Below are positions 7,341 through 8,669 of a stretch of DNA of 35,650 nucleotides, one piece after another. A model generated the notes under the pieces. It made no database searches and was not told the DNA's origin. It saw only the letters and a list, made by a program, of their open reading frames with translations. Made by a program: the position numbers and the translations under genes. Within the stretch, counting starts at the first letter, position 1. Each line of letters opens with the position of its first letter. The stretch is from positions 1 through 35,650 of the forward strand of contig JAABSA010000036.1 in the NCBI GenBank assembly GCA_011390635.1. Direction: 5' to 3'. This stretch comes from Desulfotignum sp. GTDB taxonomy: Bacteria; Desulfobacterota; Desulfobacteria; Desulfobacterales; Desulfobacteraceae.

Positions 7341-8111
7341 ATGAGTGAGCATAACCTACGGAAACTGGTTGAGAAACGGATTCCCGGTTTGTTTTATATT
7401 ATATTCATCTTTGCAATGGTTGAATTCGGCATTCTGATGGTCTGTGTGGTATCTGCGGCAAATCAGACCCTAGTGAAAGTGTATGACCCCAAAAAAACCA
7501 TTGTATATCAAGATATGTACAATGCCGAAGCACTGGCTGAATTCAAACGGGTATACGGGATACAAAACTTCAAAGACGAGGGCTTTACCATCTCCCGGGT
7601 CCTGGTTGAAAAAAAATTTCCCACAAGAACATGGATCGCGTTATCCATATGCATCCCCATGATGCTTATATTGTTTGTCGTCTTTGTGGTCAGGGTCTAT
7701 GAGGATTTGTTTCACCTGAAAAAAAAACCGCCCGAACACGGCGCCAAAGACAGCATGGAGTTTACTTTTGAAGAAACAAAATTTGAAAAAGTCTTTTCAA
7801 CCCTGGGACGGCTCAATATTTACGCTTTGGGCGCCTTCATCATTGTTGCGGCCTTTCTTTTCTGGATGGTTCCGGACCTGCTGGTATATATCGGGAAAAT
7901 CAGCTATCAGACCATTTCACAGCTCAAATGGGTCCTGCTGGCCCTGGTGCTTCTTGGCGGATTTTATTTGATCATCAAGGCATTTTTATCATACAAGACA
8001 AAGATAAAAATCATCCAGCAGCAATCTGAAATCCAGAAAAACCGGGACCGCCTGGCCATAGAAGCCCGAAACGGCATAAAGCTTTTGGGAAACCGGCCGA
8101 ACGAACAATAA
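7341..8111 (+). CDS. Uncharacterised four-helix membrane protein
   Basis: I do not recognise the family. The 256 residues contain four likely membrane helices, near 17-40, 95-120, 157-182 and 194-216. A domain of about 55 residues lies between helices 1 and 2, starting NQTLVKVYDPKKTIVYQ, and is probably outside the cytoplasm. A charged loop connects helices 2 and 3. The C-terminus is a Lys/Gln/Arg-rich, likely coiled-coil tail (KIIQQQSEIQKNRDR). AAGGA lies about 10 bases before ATG 7341. It follows the hybrid kinase by 55 bases on the same strand and may be co-transcribed. The kinase has no membrane anchor, so a link between them is possible but is only inference. Confidence 0.7.
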   Translation: MSEHNLRKLVEKRIPGLFYIIFIFAMVEFGILMVCVVSAANQTLVKVYDPKKTIVYQDMYNAEALAEFKRVYGIQNFKDEGFTISRVLVEKKFPTRTWIALSICIPMMLILFVVFVVRVYEDLFHLKKKPPEHGAKDSMEFTFEETKFEKVFSTLGRLNIYALGAFIIVAAFLFWMVPDLLVYIGKISYQTISQLKWVLLALVLLGGFYLIIKAFLSYKTKIKIIQQQSEIQKNRDRLAIEARNGIKLLGNRPNEQ

Positions 8112-8224
8112 GACTACCCATGTCCTGCATAACGTGTTCAATCTTCACTGTTTTTATGGAGAATCAGCAAAAAGGGGCTATTGATATCTTTACAGAACCA
8201 AATAGTACAGCCAAATTAGGTCAT

Positions 8225-8273
8225 AATCAGGTGAAAAAACCAATAATATTATAAGGATCTTTTTCACCTGATT
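8225..8273. terminator. 14-bp perfect inverted repeat at the 3' end of the selenoprotein gene
   Basis: AATCAGGTGAAAAA (8225-8238) and its exact complement (8260-8273) flank a 21-base A/T-rich loop. The right arm overlaps the TAA stop (8272-8274) of the minus-strand rhodanese gene, and the repeat lies 113 bases after the plus-strand membrane-protein gene. The position suits a shared transcription end. However, the U-run lies inside the stem rather than after it, so it is not a textbook Rho-independent terminator. A regulatory palindrome is the alternative. Confidence 0.45.
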
Positions 8274-8589
8274 AAAGCATATTGAAACCGGCTTCCTTCC
8301 AGCCGGCAATACCCTTATCCAGCACCTGAATTTGTGTGTAGCCGTCTGCCATGTATTGTGCGGCAAGCCTTGCCGCAGAGCTGTCGCCTGGTCACCCTCA
8401 GTAAAATATGATACGGGTATCTGTTGCCAGGTCCGGTTTGAGTTTGAGAAACTCGCTCATGGGGATCGCCCCTTCAAGGTGGGCCGTATCCCTGAATTTG
8501 TCATCATCATAAATGCACACCAGCAGGGCCATTCCTTCTTCCACTGCACACTTGGCATCTGAAGCTGAAATTTTGTTCAATTGGTTCAT
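8272..8589 (-). CDS. Rhodanese-like selenoprotein with two in-frame UGA codons (predicted)
   Basis: From ATG 8589, behind a perfect AAGGAGGT site, the frame reads 63 residues ending RIIFY and meets TGA at 8398-8400. The frame then reads Gly, a second TGA (8392-8394), PGDSSAARLAAQY and, later, KGIAGWKEAGFNML before TAA at 8272-8274. The part after the UGAs is exactly the second half of a rhodanese domain, including the closing G-x-x-x-W-x-x-A-G motif. Related rhodaneses carry Y-C-x-C-P here; this protein would have Y-U-G-U-P, with the first U at the persulfide-forming cysteine position. A SECIS-like hairpin follows at 8359-8377. The full length is 105 residues. A nonsense-damaged gene is the alternative, but two UGAs at exactly the two cysteine positions argue against decay. 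No Sec machinery lies in the window. Confidence 0.85.
8359..8377 (-). promoter_or_regulatory. Bacterial SECIS-like hairpin
   Basis: Read on the minus strand, the 19 bases form a perfect inverted repeat. Seven base pairs (TGCGGCA with TGCCGCA) close a five-base loop AGGCT, with G-G in the loop as in known bacterial SECIS elements that bind SelB. The loop begins 27 bases after the first UGA and 21 after the second; bacterial SECIS loops usually lie about 16-37 bases after the UGA. The stem is coding (SAARLAAQ). Confidence 0.7.
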
Positions 8590-8669
8590 AAAAACCTCCT
8601 TACCACGCCGTAGATATAAGGTATATCAAAATCATTCGACTGCCGGCGGCGGCTTCCTGCAGCCCGTAT

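Follow-up and report, generated by a model that had tools for sequence, protein, structure and literature searches.

A predicted rhodanese-like selenoprotein with a Sec-Gly-Sec motif and one candidate SECIS element in Desulfotignum

Introduction

Several forms of rhodanese that contain selenocysteine (Sec, U) have been described, among them CxU proteins and TsoB (PMC13188914, PMC9312934; here and below, statements from cited papers refer to the excerpts used). The CxU form, modelled as NF041203 (rhodanese_LYCAU), is described as the "rhodanese-like form 3, CxU" selenoprotein and has one Sec listed (PMC13188914; PMC9312934). Two Sec in one active region are described for TsoB (NF045694), a rhodanese/DsbD fusion with a UxxxxU motif (PMC13188914), and Prx-like selenoproteins with UxxU are also known (PMC13188914; PMC9312934). 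A Sec rhodanese-like domain is mentioned for a marine deltaproteobacterium (PMC8318568). A 2026 review states coverage of 119 families, and the string UxU is absent from its main text (PMC13188914). Among the portions of openly licensed papers that made up the literature searched, no UxU rhodanese was found.

Here, we analyze a rhodanese-like gene of Desulfotignum sp. with two in-frame TGA codons, and we compare it with relatives that have one Sec or two.

The locus and its reading frame

The window (the whole 35,650-nt stretch of contig JAABSA010000036.1, assembly GCA_011390635.1) contains a minus-strand frame of 105 codons (8589–8275). Starting at ATG 8589, it comprises 63 codons, TGA, GGG, TGA, 39 codons, and then TAA, which places in-frame TGAs at codons 64 and 66 with one Gly codon between them (Table 1). 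With TGA translated as Sec, the product reads MNQLNKISASDAK...IIFYUGUPGDSSAARLAAQYMADGYTQIQVLDKGIAGWKEAGFNML. Its score against the Pfam Rhodanese model PF00581 (36 bits, cut-off 22.2) places it in the superfamily. The standard-code list of open reading frames for the window holds only a 63-residue stub (8398–8589).

The earlier note on this DNA had read from the letters an ATG with a Shine-Dalgarno sequence, two TGAs one Gly codon apart followed by TAA, a rhodanese domain, and a gene that standard callers would cut at 63 residues, and each of these is found. Its central claim, a Sec-Gly-Sec-Pro motif in a 105-residue rhodanese-like protein, is supported by homologues, downstream constraint, and the presence of selA, selB, and selD, as described below.

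TGA terminates 13 of the 22 long open reading frames taken as the main window genes and is thus an ordinary stop codon in the window. The probable terminator that begins at the stop codon would be common to the selenoprotein gene and the convergent gene at 7341–8111.

Table 1. Features of the predicted selenoprotein gene (positions in the window)
Feature	Position	Strand	Basis or remark
CDS, predicted 105-residue UxU rhodanese-like selenoprotein	8275..8589	-	TGAs conserved, pN<pS on both sides; stop TAA 8272-8274
Shine-Dalgarno AAGGAGG, 5 bases upstream of ATG	8595..8601	-	sequence
Cys25 codon, LLVC[IA]Y motif, third nearly invariant chalcogen site	8515..8517	-	at least 90% of 53 rows
First UGA, predicted Sec64	8398..8400	-	Cys 30, Sec 23 of 53 Sec-motif family loci (named genomes)
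Second UGA, predicted Sec66	8392..8394	-	Sec in 53/55 family loci (named genomes)
bSECIS hairpin (predicted) within the CDS	8359..8377	-	apical loop starts 21 nt past UGA2, 27 nt past UGA1
Perfect 15-bp inverted repeat from the stop codon; probable terminator	8224..8274	.	fold z -4.15

Conservation of the two TGA codons

We searched 291 genomes (the host and relatives) in six frames with the 105-residue read-through; match counts are among the matches listed. Strong matches with both TGAs were present in 22 genomes, the host included, and all of those listed belong to the host family (22 of its 86 genomes, 7 genera). Identity to the window protein ranges from 58 to 94% in the other 21, and in all 22 the TGAs lie six bases apart within Y-U-G-U. 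Because the same two codons recur in 22 genomes, the double TGA is beyond chance. One genome (G076) carries one two-TGA copy and one one-TGA copy.

Selection was quantified pairwise over 21 of the 22 UGU sequences, leaving out one that is truncated (L027). Median pN/pS was 0.198/0.693 before the TGAs and 0.210/0.594 after them, and on either side all 210 pairs had pN below pS; by this measure the sequence downstream of the TGAs is under purifying selection. Both conservation checks suggested in the earlier note thus came out in its favour, since constraint persists beyond the UGAs and homologues have Cys or Sec at both positions. Taken together, the frame at 8589–8275 almost certainly encodes a U-x-U selenoprotein.

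More distant two-TGA rhodanese matches (G218:C177:10009-10311, G086:C43:230563-230859, and G406:C3:186820-187134) are possibly further double-Sec rhodaneses.

A candidate SECIS element within the gene

The hairpin downstream of the UGAs has the loop AGGCU, and RNAfold adds one A-U closing pair to its stem. Folded alone (43 nt), the window hairpin reaches -14.3 kcal/mol (z -1.36; 18 of 200 shuffles fold equally well or better), and a 52-nt stretch that includes both UGAs has z -0.53. Evidence that the hairpin goes beyond chance comes from covariation across 54 rows (53 family loci from named genomes plus the window, with shuffles that ignore relatedness), the lone window hairpin being unexceptional.

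In the six-pair stem, 92.6% of cells are paired, against a shuffle mean of 75.5%, and 55 cells are changed on both sides, against 20.2; none of 500 shuffles reaches either value. Of five covariation measures, two did not rise above shuffles: the number of pairs showing any change on both sides and the number of pair types, whose observed values were reached by 495 and 497 of 500 shuffles. Shifting the partner by 1–3 columns lowers stem pairing to 24–60%. The best pair, 30-42, brings together the wobble positions of codons 72 and 76 (UA 22, GC 16, CG 14, unpaired 2), so that 52 of 54 rows pair, and 0 of 20,000 shuffles were as good. It is paired in 23 of 24 rows of the UxU set alone and in 39 of the 40 rows with Ala at both codons, which protein constraint cannot explain.

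A G occupies the first or second loop position in 54/54 rows, and GGUC is found in 38 of 54, the loop that E. coli fdhF, our control, likewise has. The quoted bacterial SECIS model has a 4–16 bp stem, a 3–9 nt loop with G in its first two positions, a distance of 16–37 nt from the UGA, and a minimum free energy of -7.5 kcal/mol or below (PMC13188914). The window gene lies inside every one of these limits for both UGAs. On these limits and the covariation, the hairpin is, as the earlier note had proposed from its loop and distance, a bacterial SECIS.

The position of the hairpin relative to the second codon is identical in CxU and UxU genes, and no second conserved hairpin was seen in foldings of the family rows; a single SECIS therefore most likely serves both UGAs.

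Selenium machinery and the search for selC

The earlier note had proposed looking for selA, selB, selC, and selD in the genome. The host assembly (4.09 Mb, 98 contigs, 96.4% complete) contains profile matches to selA (601 bits), selB (342 bits), and selD (370 bits), and selC was not found in this draft (G000). The host selD (G000:C26:12486-13409) has an in-frame TGA of its own, in VKGAGUAAK, and is itself a predicted selenoprotein. Among the matches listed, selA is present in 21 of the 22 UGU genomes (the remaining one is 78% complete) and in 275 of 291 genomes overall; as it is near universal in the order, its co-occurrence discriminates little.

In the host assembly, selC was sought by Rfam scan, by ARAGORN (13 host loci), and by an anticodon-arm pattern, and none was found. 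A 26-base selC pattern with 3 mismatches gave no match in any of five drafts (control G001 positive), and two selC-flank searches of the host, one with a positive control and one without, did not recover it either. A weak flank match on host contig C17 lies at the end of the tmRNA gene and was rejected.

Among the 12 UGU genomes examined, eight have selC over the Rfam cut-off (G001, G021, G028, G037, G042, G052, G058, and G060), including all seven with six contigs or fewer, and the same-genus genome G001 has both the UGU gene and selC. The four in which selC was not found (G000, G002, G006, and G007) are all draft assemblies. The four group together as a clade in the tree, which makes chance assembly gaps uncomfortable as the sole explanation. 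G001, being truncated, was not included in that tree; its protein is 90% identical to that of the window, compared with 82–96% for the clade.

In two same-genus genomes, the selC 3' end recurs ~5 and 13 kb away from the gene itself (G003:C161:1705-1759 and G011:C1:1910856-1910900), and these copies resemble attachment sites of elements that integrate at tRNA ends. Because such copies flank selC there, it is plausible, though unproven, that the selC stretch was lost in assembly or binning of the drafts. Two same-genus genomes (G008:C1 and G011:C1) have a second, divergent tRNA-Sec with a TCA anticodon according to ARAGORN, and no UGU gene was found in either.

Cys-x-Sec and Sec-x-Sec relatives

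A scan of named genomes, limited to the best 80 of 95 candidates, yielded 79 loci: 55 of the family of the window protein and 24 other rhodaneses (L128–L151). Within these limits, 53 of the 55 family loci have C-x-U or U-x-U (30 CxU, 23 UxU), that is, a second chalcogen (Cys or Sec) at position 64 and Sec at 66. The family set excludes L091 (YCGSG) and L106, which breaks off short of the motif, and L096 was omitted from protein alignment A4 only. In L091, from a Syntrophaceae MAG (match 8001-8291), the loop reads YCGSG in place of YCxU and appears to be of the usual Cys rhodanese type, with no Sec.

UxU occurs chiefly in Desulfobacteraceae and in MAGs near that family (L073–L086), with the isolate Desulfospira joergensenii DSM 10085 (L080) among the carriers. 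It is also found in MAGs whose names rest on binning, namely two named Nitrospiraceae (L123, on a contig titled as a chromosome, and L125), Candidatus Wallbacteria (L116), ADurb.Bin243 (L107), Methylomirabilota (L103), Phycisphaeraceae (L098), and Desulfonatronospira (L108, as UAU); L111 and L118 (UAU) have UxU as well. In a further search, over 395 genomes of the phylum, 47 gave matches with E values of at most 1e-12, and the loci read from this search added one USU (L164) and one UAU protein identical to that of L118 (L172). The two forms coexist in one MAG, OB14, as UGU (L085) and CAU (L101).

Most relatives outside the group of the window gene are Cys-x-Sec. Two related rhodaneses beyond the family carry YCTUP (L177) and YCDCP (L179), which suggests the order CxC, then CxU, then UxU. 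In a tree with both Sec columns masked, built without loci from the 395-genome search, the truncated L027, and duplicates, five changes are needed for the 33 UxU rows among 70, and two are forced by well supported branches. A single UxU origin was tested against this tree and is disfavoured by the five changes; the AU test leaves a single UxU clade possible (not rejected, p 0.08). With two of five changes forced and this p value, a repeated origin of UxU is only likely.

The middle residue was tallied over 87 sequences picked by the pattern [CU]xU, a tally in which other residues at the flanking positions cannot appear. Gly occupies it in 29 of 32 UxU sequences (UGU) and in 4 of 55 CxU sequences (CGU). 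The association amounts to only two independent pairs on well supported branches and five on all branches, and given so few pairs we draw no conclusion about a Gly between the Secs. We consider it evenly poised whether this rhodanese family repeatedly swapped its remaining active-site Cys for a second Sec, to give a Sec-Gly-Sec, Sec-Ala-Sec, or Sec-Ser-Sec diselenide centre with two Sec inserted through one SECIS.

Fold, active site, and proposed chemistry

With Cys substituted for Sec, AlphaFold (AF2) gave a rhodanese domain from a 53-row alignment (pLDDT 89.8). Its best solved match by Z score is the sulfurtransferase GlpE (1gmx; Z 15.3, rmsd 2.5, 102 aligned). In hhalign, with a manually entered GlpE sequence, Sec66 falls on GlpE Cys65, which we take to be the catalytic Cys of GlpE, and Sec64-Gly65 appears as an insertion. 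The distance between Sec66 and the Gly in the next G-Y is 17 residues, equal to the Cys spacing in GlpE and in the second domain of 6mxv. HMMER against 6mxv instead pairs the catalytic Cys with residue 64 and not with 66, and for this reason the placement of Sec66 at the site of the rhodanese catalytic Cys is likely, not certain. Cys25 sits where the D-I-R of GlpE has Asp (hhalign) and may be a third active-site partner. No signal peptide was evident by eye, and the protein is apparently stand-alone, single-domain, and cytosolic.

Strong sequence evidence points to a mechanism in which SelB with Sec-tRNA would decode both UGAs, 6 nt apart, through the single downstream SECIS, giving the active-site loop Tyr63-Sec64-Gly65-Sec66-Pro67. 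The first step would most likely be attack by Sec66 on an oxidised substrate or a sulfane sulfur, after which Sec64 would resolve the adduct through a Sec-Sec or Sec-S link and a cell thiol system would reset the Sec pair. Since Sec66 is kept family-wide and position 64 is Cys or Sec, we assign the nucleophile to 66 and the resolving partner to 64. We tentatively propose, at somewhat less than even confidence, that the protein works in this way as a redox or sulfane-sulfur-handling enzyme and not as a plain sulfurtransferase.

The fold match to GlpE and the alignment of Sec66 with its catalytic Cys would also fit a selenoprotein that is nevertheless a true sulfur- or selenium-transfer rhodanese, a persulfide or perselenide carrier in which residue 64 only modulates activity. 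Against this, the active-site loop of rhodaneses typically has the form CxxGx[RST], and the window protein lacks it. It also reaches just 30.2 bits against the GlpE model NF001195 (cut-off 102), and 53 of the 55 named-genome family loci retain a second chalcogen at 64. We regard such a carrier, whose transfer function the earlier note had proposed, as possible, though rather unlikely.

Gene neighbourhood

Open reading frames within 7 kb of the gene were clustered across the 53 family loci and the window, many of these loci being short. No widely recurring neighbour emerged that would point to a substrate: the largest cluster is represented in 9 of 54 loci, at varying distances from the gene, and its member in the window is an 853-residue sensor kinase. 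As many loci are short, missing neighbours are weak evidence. Five loci (L077, L078, L081, L084, and L085) have two downstream opposite-strand genes in common, which in L077, whose copies were scanned, encode a GAPDH-like protein and a PEP-utilising enzyme. These genes suggest no functional link.

Alternatively, the two Sec and Cys25 could serve in detoxification by binding metals or metalloids (Hg, As, or Cu), and some other prokaryotic selenoproteins with two Sec are listed as metal-binding (PMC13188914). The lack of any neighbour in more than 9 of the 54 loci speaks against this reading, weakly, as most neighbours are unannotated; we consider it improbable.

Discussion

We find it very probable that the gene encodes a UxU selenoprotein read through one SECIS, an explanation built on comparative sequence analysis. 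One objection concerns the first UGA. The loop sequence GGUCU of fdhF begins 18 nt after its UGA, compared with 21 nt from UGA2 and 27 nt from UGA1 in the window gene, and at this distance decoding of UGA1 may be weak. One could accordingly imagine that only UGA2 is read efficiently and that UGA1 is mainly a stop, so that mostly the 63-residue stub is made, as a selenium-dependent switch. The distance from UGA1 to the SECIS does exceed that of UGA2 by 6 nt and that of the fdhF UGA by 9 nt, and Cys-x-Sec relatives require UGA2 alone. Yet 27 nt is inside the 16–37 nt range of the bacterial model (PMC13188914), the protein is constrained before and after the UGAs, and no listed copy at least 58% identical has Cys at codon 64, although TGC and TGT are one base away. 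Such a switch is very improbable in our view.

Two in-frame stops in a draft assembly could in principle reflect a pseudogene, a sequencing error, or general reassignment of TGA, explanations excluded in practice because the identical two TGAs recur in 22 genomes and in the isolate D. joergensenii, pN is well below pS, relatives have Cys at codon 64, and TGA is an ordinary stop in the window.

If the gene is indeed a doubly decoded selenoprotein gene, two UGA decodings within six nucleotides off one hairpin would allow a direct test of SelB-SECIS-ribosome coupling, bearing on hairpin refolding, on the possible reuse of one SelB complex, and on the spacing that is tolerated. D. joergensenii DSM 10085, as a named isolate with a UxU gene, is a testable carrier, and the co-occurrence of CxU and UxU members in at least one MAG (OB14) offers a natural comparison of what the second selenium contributes. 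The UxU arrangement, with two selenium atoms predicted in one active site, appears to occur in several bacterial groups. Genes of the family are probably annotated as fragments or missed, as no NCBIfam model reaches its cut-off for the 12 members tested.

Among described systems, GlpE shares the fold and the site aligned with Sec66, and presumably has one catalytic Cys and no Sec. TsoB shares two Sec in one active region and differs in Sec spacing, and the window protein scores 13.1 bits against NF045694 (cut-off 805). The Prx-like UxxU proteins likewise place two Sec in one active region, at a different spacing.

Closer is NF041203, which has in common with the window protein a rhodanese fold, a Y-[C/U]-x-U loop, and a UGA-encoded Sec. 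The window protein has U-x-U instead of C-x-U and scores 42.8 bits against a cut-off of 115; all 12 family members tested fall under that cut-off (42.8–70.7 bits). The host has a second Sec rhodanese (G000:C12:3600-4600, minus strand) with LVLYCAUPSEYTSAG, a member of NF041203 at 160.1 bits that looks exported, with a signal peptide by eye. Judged by these scores, of the 12 members and of the host's own LYCAU protein, the UxU/CxU family is separate from NF041203 and yet a relative of a known selenoprotein.

The nearest relatives are the FYCxU proteins of Desulfobacterota, Nitrospirota, Acidobacteriota, Brocadia, and others, which have similar length, an LVC[AI]YDD-type motif, and the same SECIS position, and differ in having Cys, not Sec, at residue 64; they clearly belong to the same family, and FYCxU genes exist as separate copies in the host's own family (L047, L048, and L101). 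CxU rhodanese selenoproteins are thus already known, and the new feature here is the second Sec.
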